Assembly: GCA_000999025.1 (NCBI GenBank)
Contig: LCFM01000011.1
Span: 1,797-44,383 of the forward strand
Source: Parcubacteria group bacterium GW2011_GWA2_43_13
GTDB lineage: Bacteria > Patescibacteriota > Patescibacteriia > UBA9629 > GWA2-43-13
Direction of reading: 5' to 3'
Length of the DNA: 42,587 nucleotides
Below are positions 8,228-42,587 of this stretch, piece by piece. The translations under genes were made by a program, and so were the position numbers. Below the pieces are notes generated by a model, which searched no databases, was not told the DNA's origin, and saw nothing but the letters and a program-made list of their open reading frames with translations. Within the stretch, counting starts at the first letter, position 1, and every line of letters starts with the position of its first letter.

Positions 8228-9262
8228 TTGTCTATTCATCTTGTTTGTATGCCTTTGTGGTCAAAGAAAATCGGCATTGATCTTGGCACAACCTATACGC
8301 TTGTCCATCTTCCCAAGCGAGGAATTGTGATTAACGAGCCATCAGTTGTTGCAATATCTCTTATTGATAAAAAGATTTTAGCCGTGGGAAACGAGGCAAA
8401 AGAAATGATTGGTCGCACTCCGGAATCAATCGTTGCGGTACGGCCATTGAAAGATGGCGTTATTGCTGATTACAGAACCACAGAGGCGATGCTGAGATAT
8501 TTTATTGGCAAAGCGCTTGGCGGAGTTCGTCTTTTTCGGCCCGAGGTTATGGTTGCGGTTCCTGCGGGGATTACTTCAACTGAACGGCGCGCTGTGATTG
8601 ACGCAACGCTTGCGGCTGGGGCAAAGGCCGCATATATCATCAAAGAGCCGATTGCCGCGGCTATTGGAGCCAATATCCCAATCGGATCCGCAACCGGACA
8701 CATGGTTGTTGATATGGGCGGTGGTACAAGCGAAATAGCAGTTATTTCATTAGGTGGGATCGTCTCAAGCACGTCGGTAAGAATAGGAGGGAACCGTTTT
8801 GATGCGGATATTGCAGAACACATTAAAAAGAAATACAACCTTGCAGTGGGGGAGCGGACGTCTGAAGATATAAAAATACAAATCGGATCGGCAATGTACA
8901 TGAAAGAAAAGCTCAAAATGGAAGTTCGTGGCAGAGATATGATTACTGGGTTGCCACGGACAGTTACTGTTACGTCAGATGATATCACAGAAGCACTTCA
9001 GCATAATCTTGAAGGTGTTATTGCGGCTGTAAAATCGGTGTTATTTAATACTCCTCCGGAATTATCAGCAGATGTCATTGATAAAGGGATGGTGCTCTCA
9101 GGAGGCACATCGTTATTGCGAAATATGGATAAATTATTGAGCCAGGCGATAGGTGTTGAGGCCTATGTCGCGGACGAGGCACTGTTATGTGTTGCAAAGG
9201 GGACTGGCGTTGCTTTGGATAACCTTGAGGCATATAAGAGAAGTATTCTCGCATCGCGATAG
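8228..9262 (+). CDS. mreB: Rod shape-determining actin homologue MreB (first copy)
   Basis: MreB polymerises under the membrane and guides the elongation peptidoglycan machinery. The actin-type nucleotide site is clear: IGIDLGTTYT (phosphate 1), VVDMGGGTSEIA (phosphate 2) and VLSGGTSLLRNMD (adenosine region). The length (344 aa) is typical. Start choice is open. TTG at 8228 has a GAGGT ribosome site 7 nt upstream; ATG at 8249 gives the more usual short N-terminus MPLWSKKIGIDLG but has no ribosome site. It follows a terminator, so it has its own promoter. A second, clearly different mreB lies at 13025-14080; this copy is separate from mreC. Confidence 0.93.
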   Translation: MSIHLVCMPLWSKKIGIDLGTTYTLVHLPKRGIVINEPSVVAISLIDKKILAVGNEAKEMIGRTPESIVAVRPLKDGVIADYRTTEAMLRYFIGKALGGVRLFRPEVMVAVPAGITSTERRAVIDATLAAGAKAAYIIKEPIAAAIGANIPIGSATGHMVVDMGGGTSEIAVISLGGIVSSTSVRIGGNRFDADIAEHIKKKYNLAVGERTSEDIKIQIGSAMYMKEKLKMEVRGRDMITGLPRTVTVTSDDITEALQHNLEGVIAAVKSVLFNTPPELSADVIDKGMVLSGGTSLLRNMDKLLSQAIGVEAYVADEALLCVAKGTGVALDNLEAYKRSILASR

Positions 9263-9306: not shown

Positions 9307-10275
9307 ATGCACCCACAGCAGGAAACCCTTGTCGCGGAGATGAGTTCTCTTATTCAAAAAGGGGTGTCTGCTCATGCGTATTTGTTGACAGGGTCTCGTG
9401 GTGTAGGGAAGCGGAATATTGTTGAGGCCATTATTCAAAACGTGATATCGGGTATCAGTGACAGTGTATCAGATGATACGCAGTATCCGTTTTCTTTTAA
9501 AACCCCTCACCCTGATGTGTTGGTGATCGAGCGCGCGCAGGATGCGACGGGTATTGTATTGGAAGATATCCAACAGGCGCATCAACGACTGTTACATCAT
9601 CCGGTTTTTGTCCCATGGAATATCGTGGCATTGTTTGATGTACAACAAATGAACACGCAAGCCGGGAATGCTTTTCTAAAACTTCTCGAAGAACCCCCAC
9701 CCTCTGCTTTGATTTTTTTAACTGCAACAACAACGTCTTCTCTTCTTCCAACCATTGTCTCGCGGTGTCATCGTATAAAAATCCCAACCGTTCCGCACGA
9801 TGCTTTAGCCGAGTATTTGCGTGAAAAAGGAGCAGAACCTTCTCGCGCATCGTGGATAGCCGCTTTGTCTCAAGGAAGAAGCGCGTTTGCTGAAACGTTG
9901 TTAGATGAATCGGTATGGGAAGAAACACTTTCTTTGATTCGGAATATTCTTCCCATCATCAGCAGTGATTTGCCAGCAGGATTTCATGCCATTGAGGCGT
10001 ATTCAAAAGAAAAAGAAGCATATCAACGCGCATGCGGAATTCTTCTTTCTCTTTTACGGGACTTAATTATGTTGAAAATTTCTCCATCTTTGCCTTTAGT
10101 GAACGAGTGGTTGTCATCTGAATTAGCATTGCTCAAAGATAGGTTTTCTCTTGATCGGCTTACAGGATGTATGAGCGCTTTGTTGAAAGAACAGGAATAT
10201 CTTTCTATTGCCCTTCATCGCCGTTTACGGCTTGAAGACGTTTTTCTTTTATTTCATCATCCCGTATCTGTATGA
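9307..10275 (+). CDS. holB: DNA polymerase III delta' subunit
   Basis: A 322-aa clamp-loader ATPase-fold subunit. It has a degenerate P-loop GSRGVGKRN near residue 29, the NAFLKLLEEPP block and the SRC motif (IVSRCHRI) that supplies the trans arginine to a neighbouring subunit. The usual four-cysteine zinc module after the P-loop is absent. Delta' is the rigid stator of the loader that opens the sliding clamp. A TATACT -10 box at 9292-9297 lies only 9 nt before the ATG, so the transcript may be leaderless or nearly so. The stop overlaps the next start by four bases. Confidence 0.88.
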   Translation: MHPQQETLVAEMSSLIQKGVSAHAYLLTGSRGVGKRNIVEAIIQNVISGISDSVSDDTQYPFSFKTPHPDVLVIERAQDATGIVLEDIQQAHQRLLHHPVFVPWNIVALFDVQQMNTQAGNAFLKLLEEPPPSALIFLTATTTSSLLPTIVSRCHRIKIPTVPHDALAEYLREKGAEPSRASWIAALSQGRSAFAETLLDESVWEETLSLIRNILPIISSDLPAGFHAIEAYSKEKEAYQRACGILLSLLRDLIMLKISPSLPLVNEWLSSELALLKDRFSLDRLTGCMSALLKEQEYLSIALHRRLRLEDVFLLFHHPVSV

Positions 10276-11378
10276 AAAAACACATTTCTTTTTTTGCGTG
10301 TATCATTTTTATTCTTTTAGGATTTTCAGGGTGTTCTCCTCTTGGAATTAAGGTACAGACAACTGGTAATGATATACAATCAGGAGGGACCGGTGGAATA
10401 TACCGTTCCCGTGATGGCGGTGCGAATTTTGAGCAAGCGTCGTATGTGAGGACAGTGAACGGCGTTGCTCAAACCATTGGGTACGCAAATATTCGTTTTC
10501 TTATCTCAGATCCTTCGGATACCAGAACAGTGTACGCACTCACTGATGATGGATCAGCGTGGGTTAGTTATGCTTTTGGCGATACATGGAATAAGATTTT
10601 TTCTTCATCTCGACGCATTGAAGCATTGGTTGTTGCTCCCAGTGATCGGTCTCGTCTGTATTTGGCAGGCGGGAGAAGTATTATGGTATCAGAAGACGCA
10701 GGGGCAAATTGGAAACGCATCTACTATGACCCTGGGACTGAAACGGTTATTACGTCATTAGCTGTTGATTATACAAACCCCAAAGTGTTGTATGCAGGCA
10801 CTGCGACCGGTGCTATTCTCCAGACCCGCGATGGGGGAGAGACGTGGTTTGTTCCTGTCCGCTTGTCATATTTTGGCACAAGCGGTAGAGTGCATAAGCT
10901 GATTACTGTTCCTCAAAATCCCAGTAGATTGTATGCTGTCGTGGTTGACGGATTACAATTATCCGGCTTTATTTATATTTCCCATGACCAAGGGAAGTCA
11001 TGGGAAAAGAACAGCGCTTTGGATTCATTGGTTCGTTTATCTAAATATGGCGACTTTGAACGCGATCCCAGATCTGGCGCGTTGTATTATGCGTCATTGT
11101 ACGGATTATTTATTAGTCGGGATGAAGGCAATATATGGGAGCAGGTTCCTTTGCTTACAGCTGATCACAGTTCAATGATTTACAGTATTGCCATTGATCC
11201 TCAAGATCGCAACCATATTATATACGCAACGACAAGTACTATCGTTATCTCACAGAATCAGGGGAAAGAATGGAAATCGCTTCCGCTCCCTTCGTTCGGC
11301 GGGAGAGTTGCTCGTGATATACTGATTTCCAACGATGTGAGTGCTGACGTGTTGATTGCAACCGGAGTTGGATATTAA
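10272..11378 (+). CDS. Lipoprotein with six Asp-box (BNR-like) repeats, predicted beta-propeller
   Basis: The N-terminus is a lipoprotein signal with lipobox LGFSGC (Cys21). The rest of the 368-aa protein contains six copies of the S-x-D-x-G-x-x-W/F Asp-box: SRDGGANF, SEDAGANW, TRDGGETW, SHDQGKSW, SRDEGNIW and SQNQGKEW. Asp boxes close blades of sialidase, VPS10/sortilin and Ycf48-type propellers, so this is probably an exported propeller that binds a partner or glycan rather than an enzyme: no sialidase catalytic Arg triad or Tyr is evident. It overlaps holB by 4 nt and abuts frr, so it is part of that operon; its role there is unknown. Confidence 0.8.
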   Translation: MKKHISFFACIIFILLGFSGCSPLGIKVQTTGNDIQSGGTGGIYRSRDGGANFEQASYVRTVNGVAQTIGYANIRFLISDPSDTRTVYALTDDGSAWVSYAFGDTWNKIFSSSRRIEALVVAPSDRSRLYLAGGRSIMVSEDAGANWKRIYYDPGTETVITSLAVDYTNPKVLYAGTATGAILQTRDGGETWFVPVRLSYFGTSGRVHKLITVPQNPSRLYAVVVDGLQLSGFIYISHDQGKSWEKNSALDSLVRLSKYGDFERDPRSGALYYASLYGLFISRDEGNIWEQVPLLTADHSSMIYSIAIDPQDRNHIIYATTSTIVISQNQGKEWKSLPLPSFGGRVARDILISNDVSADVLIATGVGY

Positions 11379-11393
11379 TTGCGTAAGATTTTT

Positions 11394-11828
11394 ATGAATA
11401 CCTATGTTGCCGGTTTCATCCCGGAATTTGAAAAAGCGATAGATCATTTTTTACTTGAGTTAAGCCAGTTGCGCGCAGGTCGCGCAACCCCAGCTCTTGT
11501 TGAGGGGATTAGTGTTGACGCATATGGAGTTCGTTCTCCGATTGTGCAATTAGCAAGCATCAGTATTCCAGAAATGCGGCAGATTGTTATCCAACCGTGG
11601 GATACATCACTGCTTAAAAATATTGAAAAAGCCATTGCGGAAAGCGGACTCGGATTGAATCCTGCGAATGAAGGGGATTGCCTGCGAATTATGATCCCTG
11701 CCTTAACTGAAGAATTGTCAGAAGATGAACGGTTCCGCATGATTGAGGAATTGGATAAGGTGATAAAGTCATATCAAGAACGTATTGATCAGGAAGCGAA
11801 AAAGAAGGAGGAAGAAATATTGACCTAA
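11394..11828 (+). CDS. frr: Ribosome recycling factor, lacking an internal helix
   Basis: RRF splits post-termination ribosomes together with EF-G. The N-terminal helix with LSQLRAGRATPALVEGI and the hinge/domain II segment (SPIVQLASISIPEMRQIVIQPWD, then GLGLNPANEGDCLRI) match the family well. After IPALTEE the protein jumps directly to LSEDERFRMIEELDKVI, which aligns with the last helix (E. coli residues about 148 on). About 36 residues, the whole middle helix of the three-helix bundle including the Arg132 position, are missing, and the frame is kept. Length is 144 aa against the usual ~185. ATG at 11394 gives the normal N-terminal length; a TTG at 11379 directly follows the previous stop. 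Confidence 0.85.
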   Translation: MNTYVAGFIPEFEKAIDHFLLELSQLRAGRATPALVEGISVDAYGVRSPIVQLASISIPEMRQIVIQPWDTSLLKNIEKAIAESGLGLNPANEGDCLRIMIPALTEELSEDERFRMIEELDKVIKSYQERIDQEAKKKEEEILT

Positions 11829-11832
11829 TTGT

Positions 11833-12939
11833 ATGATACTCACTATTATTGTCTTTTTTTTGATTTTACAGCTCCTGGTGTTTGTGCATGAGTGGGGGCA
11901 TTTTATTACAGCTCGAAGAAGTGGCATTGCGGTGGAAGAGTTCGGATTCGGCTTGCCGCCTCGCATTGTCGGTATCACGAGGAAGGATGTTTTGTACTCT
12001 ATAAATGCGTTGCCCTTTGGCGGATTTGTGCGTTTAAAAGGAGAAGATCAGGAGAACAAAGATGCGGACAGTTTTTCAAAACAGCGGTGGATGAATCGCT
12101 TGGCGGTGTTATCTGCCGGTGTGCTGATGAATTTTTTATTGGCAGTCGTGTGTTATGCTGTTCTTTTTATAACCGGATTTCCTATGAGTGCTGATCGGGC
12201 ACAGACAGCCGATGATACCGGATTTGTTTCTTCTCGTTATCTTGTTGTAACCGGTATTGTAGATGGCAGTCCTGCTGAAGATGGCGATATTAAAGTTGGA
12301 GATAAAATAATGACAGTGAACGGTTTGCCGATTGAGTCATTAAAAAAAGCTCAAGATAGTATTCATGCGAGCGAGGAGGTTACACTCTTTTTAGAACGAA
12401 AAAAAGAGCAGAAGTCGGTTGTGTTAAATCCGGCGATTTTGCCTGACTTTCAAGCAGACGGCCCTATTATTGGAGTAGGGCTTGATGAAATTGCCGTGAT
12501 TCGAACGAATCCTATTATTGCTTTAGCCTTTGGCTTCCGTGAGGCGGTTTCCGTATCTGGAAGAATTTTATCCGCGTTGGGAGATATTGTCAGAGATCTT
12601 GTTGTACGTCGTACTCTTTCGCCTGATGTTGGTGGCCCAGTCGCCATAGCTGTGTTTACTGGCAGGGTTATTGATTTGGGATGGAGTCATGTGTTACAGT
12701 TTATTGCTGTTATTTCTTTGAATTTTTCCATTATTAATTTTTTACCTCTTCCTGCATTGGACGGCGGCAGGGTGTTGTTTTTGATTATTGAACGTATCAG
12801 GGGAAAGCCGGTGGGCCAACGTTTTGAGGGGTTAACTCATCAAATCGGTTTTTTTGTTCTTATTGCTCTTGCGTTTTTAATTACGACGCGTGATATTGCG
12901 CGTTTTGAGCTTTTAGGATGGCTAAAGCGATTGTTTTGA
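11833..12939 (+). CDS. rseP: Site-2 intramembrane metalloprotease RseP (M50)
   Basis: RseP-type enzymes cut transmembrane helices of anti-sigma factors and leftover signal peptides. The zinc motif HEWGH is at residues 19-23 in the first membrane segment, and the third zinc ligand region LPLPALDGGRVLF is in a later segment. A PDZ domain lies between (about 130-205, with SPAEDGDIKVGDKIMTVNG). Four membrane segments and 368 aa are normal. It starts 4 nt after the frr stop; the frr-rseP pair fits common bacterial gene order. A terminator follows. Confidence 0.93.
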   Translation: MILTIIVFFLILQLLVFVHEWGHFITARRSGIAVEEFGFGLPPRIVGITRKDVLYSINALPFGGFVRLKGEDQENKDADSFSKQRWMNRLAVLSAGVLMNFLLAVVCYAVLFITGFPMSADRAQTADDTGFVSSRYLVVTGIVDGSPAEDGDIKVGDKIMTVNGLPIESLKKAQDSIHASEEVTLFLERKKEQKSVVLNPAILPDFQADGPIIGVGLDEIAVIRTNPIIALAFGFREAVSVSGRILSALGDIVRDLVVRRTLSPDVGGPVAIAVFTGRVIDLGWSHVLQFIAVISLNFSIINFLPLPALDGGRVLFLIIERIRGKPVGQRFEGLTHQIGFFVLIALAFLITTRDIARFELLGWLKRLF

Positions 12940-13024: not shown

Positions 13025-14080
13025 ATGATTAATGCGATTCTTGGGAGATTTTCTACTGACATGGGTGTTGATTTGGGGACAACATCCACATTGGTATATA
13101 TCAAAGACAAGGGGATTGTTATAAATGAGCCATCGCTTGCTGTTATCAATACGCGATCCGATCAGATTGTTGCGGTTGGAGAAGAAGCGAAAAAAATGCT
13201 TGGGAAAACTCCGCCCCACCTTGTTATCAGTCGGCCTATTGAAAATGGCGTTATTTCTGATTTTGAAGTTACGGAAAAAATGCTTCGATATTTTATAGAA
13301 AAAATTCACCATGACAGTTGGACCCTGGTTCCGCGCCCGAGAGTCGTTATCGCCATTCCCATGGATGTGACAGAAGTGGAGCGCAAGGCAGTCGAAGATG
13401 CGACACTTGCCGCAGGCGCGCGGGAGGTTTCTTTGATTGAAAGTCCTATGGCCGCGGCAATCGGTTCTCGTCTTCCTATTCAGGAACCCAATGGATTATT
13501 TATTGTTGATATTGGAGGCGGTACCATAGAAATTGCGCTTATTTCTTTGGGCGGGATTGTTACCAGAAAAACCATACGGAGCGCAGGCGATGATATGACT
13601 GTTTCGATTATTCAGTACATTCGAGAGAATTTTAATCTTTTAATAGGAGAAAAAACAGCAGAATCGGTAAAGATAAAAATCGGTTCAGTCCTGCCATTGC
13701 GCGAGCCGATGGAAATGAGAATTCAGGGCAGGGACTTATTTTCAGGTCTTCCCAAAGAACTGGCAATTACCGATGCCCATGTTCGGGATGCAATTGAAAA
13801 ACAGGTTCGTCAGGTTATCAATACTATTAAGCAGACAGTGGAACTCTCTCCGCCCGAACTTGTTGCCGATATGTATCGTTCAGGTATTTTATTGACAGGT
13901 GGAGGGTCGTTGTTAAGAGGGCTTGATAAACGTATTTATAATGAAACGCAGATACCGGTTTCGCTTGCTGACGACCCTATCACCGCTGTTGTACGCGGTA
14001 CCGGGATTGTGCTTGAGGATCTTGATTTACTTGGAGATGTTCTGCTTCCGCCTGCTCAAGATATTTCTTCTCGAAGATAG
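13025..14080 (+). CDS. mreB: Rod shape-determining actin homologue MreB (second copy, with mreCD)
   Basis: A 351-aa actin-fold protein with MGVDLGTTSTLVY, the IVDIGGGTIEIALIS phosphate-2 loop and ILLTGGGSLLRGLD. The ATG at 13025 is chosen because an in-frame ATG at 12983 would put an intrinsic terminator inside the coding region and add a non-family N-terminus. No ribosome site is visible. This copy heads the canonical mreB-mreC-mreD-mrdA elongation cluster and shares the family motifs but clearly not recent duplication with the copy at 8228. The two may form mixed or separate filaments. Confidence 0.93.
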   Translation: MINAILGRFSTDMGVDLGTTSTLVYIKDKGIVINEPSLAVINTRSDQIVAVGEEAKKMLGKTPPHLVISRPIENGVISDFEVTEKMLRYFIEKIHHDSWTLVPRPRVVIAIPMDVTEVERKAVEDATLAAGAREVSLIESPMAAAIGSRLPIQEPNGLFIVDIGGGTIEIALISLGGIVTRKTIRSAGDDMTVSIIQYIRENFNLLIGEKTAESVKIKIGSVLPLREPMEMRIQGRDLFSGLPKELAITDAHVRDAIEKQVRQVINTIKQTVELSPPELVADMYRSGILLTGGGSLLRGLDKRIYNETQIPVSLADDPITAVVRGTGIVLEDLDLLGDVLLPPAQDISSRR

Positions 14081-22739: not shown

Positions 22740-24230
22740 TTATGCTTGTTTTTGCGAAGAGAGGAGGTCTCGCGCTTGATTCAGCCGTACTATTGTCTCC
22801 TTTGAACCGATAATTTGAATGGTTTCATACACTCCGGGCGAATGTTTCAATCGAGTGACGCTGACGCGTAATGGCCAGAGAATCTCTCCCCTTGCGTGTC
22901 CTTGTTGTTCGCGCCATTGTTCAACAATGTTTGTGATTTCTTCACATGGTGTGTTCTCGGAAATATCATTATTTTGGAATAGTTCAATCAAACCGGCAAG
23001 GATGGCGACTGTGTGTTCGATAGAGCTTTTTTTTTCAATAAGTATCAAGGGATCTTGTATTGGTTGTGTATCCCAGAGATAGGCGGTTTCTTCCCCAATA
23101 GCGCTTAAAAAGGATATTCTTTGCTGAGCGATTTTTGTTATCAGTAGAAGCTGTTTTTGAGAGTACTGGTCTGTTGGACATCCTGCTTTTTTCAGCCATG
23201 GCAGAGCACTGTCAAGGAGCGCGGTGTCTGATAGTGTTGAAATATAGTGGTGAGAAAGCCAATTCAGTTTTTCCATATTAAAAATGGCAGGGCTTTTTTG
23301 TACTCGTTCGAGAGAAAAAAGCTCAATGAGTTCAGATGAGGAAAATATTTCTTGGTTCGTTCCGGGATTCCATCCAAGGAGGACTAAAAAATTACGCAAA
23401 GCATCAGGCAGATACCCGAGTTTTTGATAGTCAAGAACGCTTTGGGCGCCATGTCTTTTGGATAGTTTTGATTTACCAGCGCCTAAAATCATAGGAAGGT
23501 GAGCAAAAGCAGGAGGTTCCCAACTGAAAGCATTATAGAGCGAAATATGTTTAGGCGTAGAGGATATCCACTCTTCTCCGCGAATAACGTGTGATATGAG
23601 CATGGCATGGTCATCAATAACAGAGGCAAGGTGATATGTTGGAAATCCGTCTGATTTGAGAATAATGGGATCGTCTTGCAATGAAAGATCAAATGACACA
23701 TTTCCCCGTATCATATCCTCAAAGGTTAGTGTCCCCTCTTTTGGCATTGCAAGTCGTATCGGAAGAGAGCCGATAGCGTCTTTTTTTTGTTCATCGCTCC
23801 ATGAGCGTGTTCTGCATTTTCCATCATATCCCGAGGGAAGGCCTTGAGTTACTTGAGTTTTTTTAAGTTGTTCCAGCCGGGCGTTATCGCACATACAGGG
23901 GTACGCGGCTCCTGTTTCAAGGAGTTTCATGACATGGCCCTGATAGAGAGACAGGCGCTGTGATTGAATATACGGGCCGTAGCGCCCTGTTTCTCCCCCT
24001 TCAGCGCTCATAACACCCTCATCTATTGTAATACCCAACCAAAGGAGCGATTCAAGAATTGCTTTTACGCTCCCGGCTTTAAGACGGGCTTGGTCAGTGT
24101 CTTCTATCCGTAACACAAATTTCCCGTTATGGTGTTTGGCAAAAAGCCATGCAAACAGGGCTGTTCTGATATTGCCGATATGAGGGGCGCCTGTTGGCGA
24201 TGGCGCGAATCGCGTGCGAACGAGGTTCAT
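22740..24230 (-). CDS. gltX: Glutamyl-tRNA synthetase
   Basis: Class I synthetase, 496 aa. The HIGH-type motif is PSPTGAPHIGN near the N-terminus and the KMSKS-type motif is KLSKRHG near residue 256. The order and length match bacterial GluRS. A CMCDN segment near residue 112 may be a remnant of the zinc-binding region. Whether it also charges tRNA-Gln (non-discriminating form) cannot be told; no glutaminyl-tRNA synthetase or GatCAB gene is in the window. The start overlaps the stop of the upstream TagA-NUDIX gene (ATGA). Confidence 0.95.
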   Translation of the reverse strand: MNLVRTRFAPSPTGAPHIGNIRTALFAWLFAKHHNGKFVLRIEDTDQARLKAGSVKAILESLLWLGITIDEGVMSAEGGETGRYGPYIQSQRLSLYQGHVMKLLETGAAYPCMCDNARLEQLKKTQVTQGLPSGYDGKCRTRSWSDEQKKDAIGSLPIRLAMPKEGTLTFEDMIRGNVSFDLSLQDDPIILKSDGFPTYHLASVIDDHAMLISHVIRGEEWISSTPKHISLYNAFSWEPPAFAHLPMILGAGKSKLSKRHGAQSVLDYQKLGYLPDALRNFLVLLGWNPGTNQEIFSSSELIELFSLERVQKSPAIFNMEKLNWLSHHYISTLSDTALLDSALPWLKKAGCPTDQYSQKQLLLITKIAQQRISFLSAIGEETAYLWDTQPIQDPLILIEKKSSIEHTVAILAGLIELFQNNDISENTPCEEITNIVEQWREQQGHARGEILWPLRVSVTRLKHSPGVYETIQIIGSKETIVRLNQARDLLSSQKQA

Positions 24231-25417
24231 AGTGAAGAAAGATAATCAATAAGTTGTGATGCCATCTCTTTTCGTACTGGGTGAAGAGATGCGATTAATT
24301 CTGTTTGTTTAACCCAAGCGCTTCGTATCACTTCTGATGGATCAAGTATAATGCTTTGTTGAGGAGTAAGCGTGGCGATGACAAGTGATTGTTTTTGCCC
24401 ATGGTATCCTCTGTTTAGTTGATGCCATTTGGGCCATGGATAGGTAAAAAAATTTCTCACGATAACTTGAACACTAAAGTTGTTCAATCCGAGCTCTTCA
24501 TGCATTTCTCTTAAAAATGCTTGATAGATACGCTCTCCTCTTTCAATGCCACCTTGTGGTAGTTGCCAGTGGCCATGGGTATCTGATCGTTCAATAATGA
24601 GAATATTTTTGTTTGTATCCATAATACACCCCAGTACGTTTTTTCGGTAACAAAAATGCATGCGAAAGAGATAATATGCAAAGATGGCAGGAAAAAGGAT
24701 AAGAGCGCGTATGATACGTTTGATTCTCCATGGCTCAAGGAAAAGCCGCCACAGCCATTCTATGCCAAGAGCTTGGAGGGCGCGAGGAGCACGGGGTTTT
24801 TTTCCAGCAATCATATCAAGCGCTCCTCCAATGCCGATTGCCAAACGGACAGAAGAAACATGAGAAAGATATTCTGCGATGAATTCTTCTTGATACGGAG
24901 CGCCCAGCGCTACGCATACAATAGAAGGTGGGTTGTTGTGTATTCTTTCAATTGCTTTGGTATATGAGATGGTGTTTTTTTTGAGAATATCAGAGTCGCA
25001 CGAAAAAGTAAGTTTTGGATACTGTGCATGAAGGTATGAGCTCAATGAGTTAAGCGTGCTTTCAGTTGAGCCGAGAAAGAGGATAGATTGATCTGTTTTT
25101 TCCGCGATTGAGCAGATATCATAGAGTATATCTGATCCACATATTCTTTTGGGGATTGGTTCGTGAATGATTTTTGCGGCAAGAAAAGTGCCAATGCCGT
25201 CGCAGAGGGAAAGAGAAGCGCTGTTGATGAGTTCTTGAAGACGGTGATTTCTTAAAGCATTCAGGCAGAGTTCGGGATTGATGGTTGCGATCCATGAAAA
25301 TACATTTGAACACATTTTTTGTTCAATAAAAGATATAACCTCTTTTTTGCTGTATTTATGGATATTCAGGCCAAGTATGTTTGTAACCCTATTGAGGTCT
25401 GTTTCATTGGTGTACAT
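24227..25417 (-). CDS. WecG/TagA glycosyltransferase fused to a NUDIX hydrolase
   Basis: A 396-aa protein. Residues about 10-245 are a WecG/TagA/CpsF (GT26) domain: SWIATINPELCLNA near the start, LCDGIGTFLAAK, and GIGGALDMIAGKKPRAP followed by LGIEWLWRLFLEPWR. These enzymes add ManNAc-type sugars to lipid-linked acceptors. Residues about 255-396 form a NUDIX domain with WQLPQGG and the complete box G-x5-E-x7-R-E-x2-E-E-x-G (LREMHEELGL), most like RppH/Ap4A hydrolases. The frame is continuous with no slippery site. The ATG at 25417 follows a TATACT box by 4 nt, so the mRNA is probably leaderless. It is coupled to gltX. Confidence 0.9.
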   Translation of the reverse strand: MYTNETDLNRVTNILGLNIHKYSKKEVISFIEQKMCSNVFSWIATINPELCLNALRNHRLQELINSASLSLCDGIGTFLAAKIIHEPIPKRICGSDILYDICSIAEKTDQSILFLGSTESTLNSLSSYLHAQYPKLTFSCDSDILKKNTISYTKAIERIHNNPPSIVCVALGAPYQEEFIAEYLSHVSSVRLAIGIGGALDMIAGKKPRAPRALQALGIEWLWRLFLEPWRIKRIIRALILFPAIFAYYLFRMHFCYRKNVLGCIMDTNKNILIIERSDTHGHWQLPQGGIERGERIYQAFLREMHEELGLNNFSVQVIVRNFFTYPWPKWHQLNRGYHGQKQSLVIATLTPQQSIILDPSEVIRSAWVKQTELIASLHPVRKEMASQLIDYLSSL

Positions 25418-35446: not shown

Positions 35447-36901
35447 ATGATTACAAAAAAACAACAACAGATTCTTGATTTCATAAAAAAATCTCAAGAA
35501 AAATACAAGTACGCTCCATCTTTAGAAGAAATCCGGAGAAATTTTAGACTTGCTTCAGTTTCTACGGCATACTATTATATTCAACAATTAAAAAACAAAG
35601 GGTATCTTTCAAAACAAAAAAATCAGCATAGATCAATAAGTGTTTTTCCAACTGGCCCAATGGTAAAAGTATCTCTTTTGGGAACAATTGCCGCAGGTCA
35701 ACCCATAGAAGCAATGCAAGAAAAAGAATTAATTGCTGTTCCTAAAAATAAACTCCCTAATTCTGGGAATGTTTACGCGCTTAGAGTTTCTGGTACTAGT
35801 ATGATTGACGAAAACATAAATGACGGCGACATTGTTTTAGTAAAACAACAAGAAACAGCAGAGAATGGAGAGAAGGTTGTTGCACTGATAGATAATCAAA
35901 AGGTAACCTTAAAAAAATACTACCGTGAAAAAGGGCATACTCGCTTACAGCCAGCTAATAAAAATATGGAGCCGCTTATCTTTAGAAACGGGTGGGGTGT
36001 TTCAATTCAAGGAGTTGTGCTCGATGTTATTCGTGAAGAAGGAACCACCACAATTCAACTACCAGTATTTAAGAAGCAAGAAAATTATGGGGAGTTACCC
36101 GTTAATAAAATTATTTGCGGAGATGCGATAGAAATAATGAAAAGATTTCCGCCCAATTCGGTAGATATTGTGGTCACTTCTCCTCCATATGACGCTGTCC
36201 GTGACTATAAAGGATTTTCTCTTGATTTACATGCGACGGGGAAAGAAATACATCGTGTTCTTAAGGATGGCGGCGTAGCTGTTATGGTAATTCAAGATCA
36301 AACAAAAAACTTTGGGAAATCATTAACATCTTTCAGAACAATTATTGATTGGTGTGATAGTTTCGGATTTAAACTTTTTGAAACGGTTATTTACCGTAAA
36401 TACGGGGCAGAGGGAGCATGGTGGAATAAACGATTTCGAGTGGATCATGAGTATATTCCAATATTTTTAAAAGGCGACCGCCCGCAACACTTCAACAAAG
36501 AACATCTGAAAATACCATCAAAACATGGCGGTAAAACAATGACAGGAGGTGGCACGCGTCTCACAAATGGTATTCGTATAGCAACTCGTTCAATTAAAAT
36601 TAATCCAATAAAATGTCGAGGAACAATCTGGGAATATCTTACCGCAGGAGACGGAAGTCGTCTTAAGCATCAACATCCGGCGACATTCCCAAATCAACTT
36701 CCTTACGATTTTATCAGGTGCTTTGCACCAAAAAACGGAATAGTTCTTGATCCGTTTGTAGGAAGCGGCACAACGACCGTTGCGGCAAAGAACCTCGGAT
36801 ACAATTATATTGGCATTGATATTGCACAAGAATATTGCTTAATCGCAGAGAAACGCATGAAAGAAGAATGCGTCTCATGTTCGCAAAATAGTTTACTCTA
36901 A
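35447..36901 (+). CDS. LexA repressor fused to beta-class DNA methyltransferase
   Basis: A 484-aa single chain. Residues 1-66 are a LexA winged helix (TKKQQQILDFIKKSQEKY start, helix-turn-helix about 26-50). Residues 75-200 are an S24 self-cleavage domain: site IAAGQP with Ala83-Gly84, nucleophile Ser118 in VSGTSM and Lys156 in VTLKKYY, at nearly the E. coli LexA positions. Residues 218-475 are an N4/N6 DNA methyltransferase of the beta order: TSPPY at 244-248 (catalytic), HQHPATFP at 408-415, then SAM motif DPFVGSGTT from Asp435. All active residues are present. RecA-stimulated self-cleavage would separate the DNA-binding part from the enzyme. The A-rich codon use differs from neighbours, suggesting transfer. 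It converges with the next gene (4-bp overlap). Confidence 0.92.
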   Translation: MITKKQQQILDFIKKSQEKYKYAPSLEEIRRNFRLASVSTAYYYIQQLKNKGYLSKQKNQHRSISVFPTGPMVKVSLLGTIAAGQPIEAMQEKELIAVPKNKLPNSGNVYALRVSGTSMIDENINDGDIVLVKQQETAENGEKVVALIDNQKVTLKKYYREKGHTRLQPANKNMEPLIFRNGWGVSIQGVVLDVIREEGTTTIQLPVFKKQENYGELPVNKIICGDAIEIMKRFPPNSVDIVVTSPPYDAVRDYKGFSLDLHATGKEIHRVLKDGGVAVMVIQDQTKNFGKSLTSFRTIIDWCDSFGFKLFETVIYRKYGAEGAWWNKRFRVDHEYIPIFLKGDRPQHFNKEHLKIPSKHGGKTMTGGGTRLTNGIRIATRSIKINPIKCRGTIWEYLTAGDGSRLKHQHPATFPNQLPYDFIRCFAPKNGIVLDPFVGSGTTTVAAKNLGYNYIGIDIAQEYCLIAEKRMKEECVSCSQNSLL

Positions 36902-42380: not shown

Positions 42381-42587
42381 CTATTTGAAAAAATAGTTCA
42401 ACCATTTTTTGATATTTGAGTCCTGATTTTTTTGAGGATCATTGGGTAAAGGCGTTATGTCTTTTTGATCTGTGTTATCATAAAAGGTTACAGCTGTCTC
42501 CCCTGCTTTTTTAAGGTTGAGTTTTTGCTTTGCCTGTGTTTCAATAAACGCATCAGAAGACGCCGCGAATTGGCGTTCTTTCATAAT
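42381..42587 (-). CDS. FtsB/DivIC-like septum protein, C-terminal part
   Basis: Only the last 68 or so residues are visible; the frame stays open past an internal ATG to the window edge. The segment FIETQAKQKLNLKKAGE followed by TAVTFYDN is the usual C-terminal signature of the FtsB/DivIC family (E-x-x-A-R/K-x-x-L-x-L-x-K-x-G-E). FtsB binds FtsQ and FtsL to trigger septal synthesis, which fits the FtsQ-like gene at 19557. The N-terminal membrane helix and coiled coil lie outside the window. Confidence 0.7.
   Translation of the reverse strand: MMKERQFAASSDAFIETQAKQKLNLKKAGETAVTFYDNTDQKDITPLPNDPQKNQDSNIKKWLNYFFK

Follow-up and report, generated by a model that had tools for sequence, protein, structure and literature searches.

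In the draft genome of Parcubacteria group bacterium GW2011_GWA2_43_13, the gene for ribosome recycling factor (RRF), frr, as assembled, is missing helix alpha-3 of domain I; the break is clean and keeps the reading frame. The missing helix is probably an artefact of assembly. The draft comprises 971 kb of patescibacterial sequence, with ~6.5% of the genome estimated missing. The stretch that we analysed, here called the window, is 42,587 nt long (positions 1,797 to 44,383 of contig LCFM01000011.1, hereafter C11). The features of the frr locus, in window coordinates, are:

10272..11378, + strand: gene for a BNR/VPS10-like repeat protein, lying before frr (Pfam)
11394..11828, + strand: frr in its assembled form, encoding a ribosome recycling factor of 144 aa (Pfam RRF, 125 bits; sole RRF match of the genome)
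11394..11714, + strand: helix alpha-1 and domain II up to its LTEE end, as in a normal RRF (profile scores inside the spread of 112 relatives)
11709..11715, + strand: junction GAAGAA/T, where 117 nt of relatives are absent and one short-repeat copy AAGAA remains (codon alignment with the relative G001)
11715..11825, + strand: alpha-4, the last domain I helix, as in a normal RRF (60th percentile among relatives by profile score)
11833..12939, + strand: rseP-like M50 peptidase gene, downstream of frr (Pfam; order the same in the G001 locus, L007)

The frr gene as assembled

The frr reading frame was taken as 144 aa; a 149-aa listing of it starts at an upstream TTG. In profile searches its product scored 125.2 bits with Pfam RRF (PF01765), passing the curated cut-off of 29.7, with the best stretch at profile positions 4–89 of 164 and a second, weak stretch at the C-terminal end. 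With the NCBIfam equivalog TIGR00496 it scored 117.1 bits and failed the cut-off of 149.1. Alignment to solved RRFs runs through LTEE and then resumes at the alpha-4 block. Relative to its closest relative, G001, the window protein lacks 39 residues, RRDDFVKQTKKKCEDSKVRIRTTRESIKDAIHKAEKDKE, equivalent to 117 nt. The original prediction had put the loss at about 36 residues, in frame; the frame holds, and the G001 alignment raises the count to 39 codons.

The absent block is alpha-3 of domain I (residues 106–143 are helical in the G001 model), and two of the three helices of the domain I bundle are left, in sequence and model alike. Within it lie, in G001 numbering, E121, R128 and R131, conserved in every complete aligned relative, and R109, conserved in 98% of aligned relatives. 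By position we take R109, E121, R128 and R131 to be R110, E122, R129 and R132 of E. coli. The alpha-3 arginines R129 and R132 (E. coli numbering) are gone from the window RRF along with the helix, and the Arg132 position does fall within the lost block, as had been predicted, its G001 equivalent R131 being in the absent segment. R132 of E. coli RRF is essential for function.

The remaining helices and domain II are ordinary, with no sign of adaptation or of decay, in agreement with the earlier view that domain II and the outer helices are conserved: scores are unexceptional among 112 relatives, with alpha-1, domain II and alpha-4 at the 46th, 92nd and 60th percentiles against the relatives' profiles. 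Among 16 core positions of the helices two are broken; the normal protein of G001 likewise has two breaks. A Glu at column 173, in the alpha-4 core, occurs only in the window RRF among 113 sequences. A protein long without alpha-3 would be expected to show change at the surface that once contacted this helix; no such change is seen here, so we regard the loss as very recent or else as not real. AlphaFold2 modelled domain II of the 144-aa protein with a pLDDT of ~92 and the outer helices at 58–77, against 73–96 for the helices of the G001 control. A fold search with the predicted structure returned only RRFs at E < 0.001, and the domain II fold was recognised.

A BNR/VPS10-like gene also lies upstream of frr in five other genomes (G002, G003, G329, G337 and G359). 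Twenty other proteins of the window, and 10 further proteins of C11, are complete in Pfam. Two full-length MreB paralogues (8252–9262 and 13028–14080) flank frr-rseP within 5 kb. Elsewhere in the window, one ORF at 24227–25417 combines a WecG/TagA-type glycosyltransferase with a NUDIX domain, and one at 35447–36901 combines LexA-like DNA-binding and S24 peptidase domains with an N6/N4 DNA methylase domain.

RRF in related genomes

In G001, from the same family, the corresponding locus ahead of rseP encodes a normal RRF of 183 aa, with 56% identity to the window RRF over the shared part; the frr-rseP sequence of the G001 contig is the same as that of Ca. Jacksonbacteria SI072_bin11 (L032). Normal RRFs were found in all three other genomes of the order. 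Normal-length RRF in relatives was half of what the original prediction had said would count against it, and that half was found. An RRF match was present in 363 of 381 genomes in a class set and in 371 of 380 in a phylum set, the latter all at least 90% complete; the two sets together amount to about 700 distinct genomes. Weak matches were inspected singly, a few at E 1e-39 to 1e-42 excepted, and most strong ones were judged by score; among the about 700 other patescibacterial genomes so screened, there was no comparable internal loss in RRF. The weakest match of the phylum set was that of the window genome itself, and all weaker ones in the class set were cut by contig ends. None of 112 other aligned RRFs had more than five gap positions in the alpha-3 region.

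Several candidate parallels were rejected. The short RRFs of G329, G337, G366, G369 and G213 are truncated at contig ends, and that of G359 is a fusion. In the latter (L115, from 1444), an RRF minus its last helix runs in frame into a glycyl-tRNA synthetase minus its start; the two adjacent genes have probably been brought together by a deletion or a mis-join. Weak matches in G309, G176, G511, G587, G565, G461 and G697 come from divergent but full-length genes, and that in G677 begins at a contig start. Second RRF matches were YbaB-like in G559, G612 and G635, and ATP synthase b-like in G677. A scan of viral contigs gave no relative.

We also rejected the idea that RRF loss is tolerated in the phylum: RRF was absent from 7 of 319 good genomes in the class set and 9 of 379 in the phylum set, at or below the expectation from incompleteness. 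In G055, one of the genomes without RRF, the gene that normally precedes frr is found at the edge of a contig. G008, G120, G516, G547, G575, G621 and G669 gave no RRF match and are assembled in 2–10 contigs at 94–100% estimated completeness; G516 and G547 belong to one family, in which the loss may be true. Our literature search on RRF in Patescibacteria or natural helix loss returned nothing relevant, and a natural RRF of such two-helix form was not found described in the literature searched.

Backup functions in the genome

Profile searching of the whole assembly gave a single RRF match and no second frr. A search across the genome with the missing helix plus alpha-4 returned alpha-4 of the window frr alone. 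No HflX was found in the genome, the best matches being Der and another GTPase, well under the cut-off. EF-G is present as one normal copy of 699 aa, so an unusual or second EF-G was rejected. RRF is essential in E. coli (PMC9067457), and because neither a second RRF nor HflX was found, a broken RRF should either kill the cell or burden it heavily. Ribosome recycling would be expected to be poor or nil in a cell with the 144-aa RRF alone.

Scaffold gaps and the frr junction

Runs of 61, 91 and 6 N in C11 and of 45 N in contig C3 show that the contigs are scaffolds; the window spans precisely the N-free sequence from the 61-N run to the 91-N run of C11. The 45-N run (G000:C3:5063–5107; L130:2535–2579) falls inside der (EngA), which encodes an essential ribosome-assembly GTPase. 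Aligned to TIGR03594, the 5' piece of der ends at ~337–340 and the 3' piece begins at ~393–397. Six relatives have 55–57 residues (~168 nt) in this gap versus 47 nt allotted by the assembly, an underestimate of ~121 nt. Masking was rejected as the cause, since it would not shorten the gene. The assembly therefore contains a join with a wrong gap size, in one precise case.

Der was the one gap at which the bias could be precisely measured. Looking for further N gaps for calibration in 297 kb of C2, C3 and C5 gave one in total. The 61-N gap falls in a glycosyltransferase gene, in a region too variable for calibration. The 91-N gap, just beyond the right end of the window, cuts a DivIC-like gene whose C-terminal fragment lies at window 42384–42587; ~41 profile positions and a membrane segment of this gene are missing, unseen beyond the gap, and correspond to more than 91 nt. 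In another draft, G263 (C10; L146, L153), part of frr is repeated either side of a 100-N run, which is a scaffold duplication artefact.

The frr junction of the window contains no N, and no repeats above 12 nt were found for it in the scaffold. As a proxy for an overlap at the join we used G001, in which the missing segment is bounded exactly by AAGAAA on either side; the window retains one GAAGAA, at 11709–11714. Considering random repeat-bounded deletions across 36 frr genes, about half would keep the frame, and 1.1–1.6% would be both in frame and helix-exact.

Origin of the missing helix

We favour an artefact because the same assembly loses ~121 nt beyond what it reports at the der join. 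Mis-assembly was among the readings originally proposed, and the der result tilts the balance towards it. Two contigs would have flanked ~117 nt of frr that had not been assembled and, the size of this gap being underestimated, would have been joined at a chance 5–6-nt overlap (AAGAA/AAGAAA). With a bias like that at der, 117 nt of truly missing sequence would come out as about −4 nt, at which a scaffolder or gap closer would seek a small overlap. This agreement in size and overlap is the strongest single argument for an artefact, the bias being taken from one gap. The lesion is also unique, the rest of the protein is ordinary, no backup was found, and the G263 draft has a scaffold error in frr as well. 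Against an artefact stand the in-frame, helix-exact loss, the completeness of the other window and C11 proteins, and the junction without N, which means that an N-free merge at 5–6 nt would be required. What we observed is the lesion, the fact that it is unique, and a gap-size bias at one further essential gene; that the same gap-size error acted at frr is our inference. The organism would then carry an ordinary RRF of ~183 aa working in the usual way, domain I sitting in the A/P sites of the large subunit and EF-G pushing domain II against bridge B2a.

The main rival is a real deletion of recent date, present in the cell or in one strain of the population; it would have arisen by slippage between short repeats and left a non-functional or weak RRF. 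The AAGAAA copies flanking the segment in G001 are a classic substrate for slippage deletion, the loss is in frame and helix-exact with no N at its junction, and an undecayed remainder is what a very recent event should leave. We nonetheless consider such a deletion unlikely, given that RRF is essential in E. coli, that neither a second RRF nor HflX was seen, and that a consensus assembly normally shows the majority allele. We give little credence to the idea that the lineage uses a functional two-helix RRF, on its own or as a dimer, whose domain II EF-G still drives. Domain II, with its pLDDT of ~92, and both outer helices are intact, and the Glu at column 173 of the alpha-4 core is found nowhere else among the aligned sequences; yet three residues conserved throughout are lost, the helices are modelled with low confidence next to the G001 control, no relative shares the form, EF-G looks normal, and the alpha-1/alpha-4 core is otherwise kept, with two breaks as in G001. 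The original suggestion that a reduced RRF works thus gained no positive evidence, the lesion being unshared and free of compensating change, and it is very doubtful that a living lineage can dispense with alpha-3 or fill the role of this helix through a dimer or ribosome changes. Almost no probability attaches to a different gene supplying the helix or a full RRF. The ~6.5% of the genome estimated missing could house a second copy, but the genome has a single RRF match, the helix search led back to frr itself, and the second RRF matches that we opened in other genomes were YbaB-like, ATP synthase b-like or a scaffold duplication. The earlier proposal that another protein provides the helix accordingly found no support.

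Comparison with known systems

Were the deletion real and the protein functional, the accepted need for a three-helix bundle and for Arg132 in ribosome recycling would be overturned. The case also carries a warning: where an essential gene in a draft genome seems to have lost a domain, an underestimated scaffold gap can be the cause; der of the same genome shows the magnitude of such a gap-size error.

Compared with bacterial RRF/frr (PF01765, TIGR00496), the window gene is alike in domain II, alpha-1, alpha-4, gene order and sequence, but it is without alpha-3 (R110, E122, R129, R132) and falls under the NCBIfam cut-off. E. coli RRF Arg132Gly (PDB 1ISE), a solved structure matched in the fold search, is altered at the key alpha-3 arginine; unlike the window RRF, it has a single substitution and a complete three-helix bundle. 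The der mis-join of the same assembly resembles the frr lesion in that an essential gene has lost 100–170 nt internally at a join, and differs in that 45 N mark the join in der whereas frr has none.
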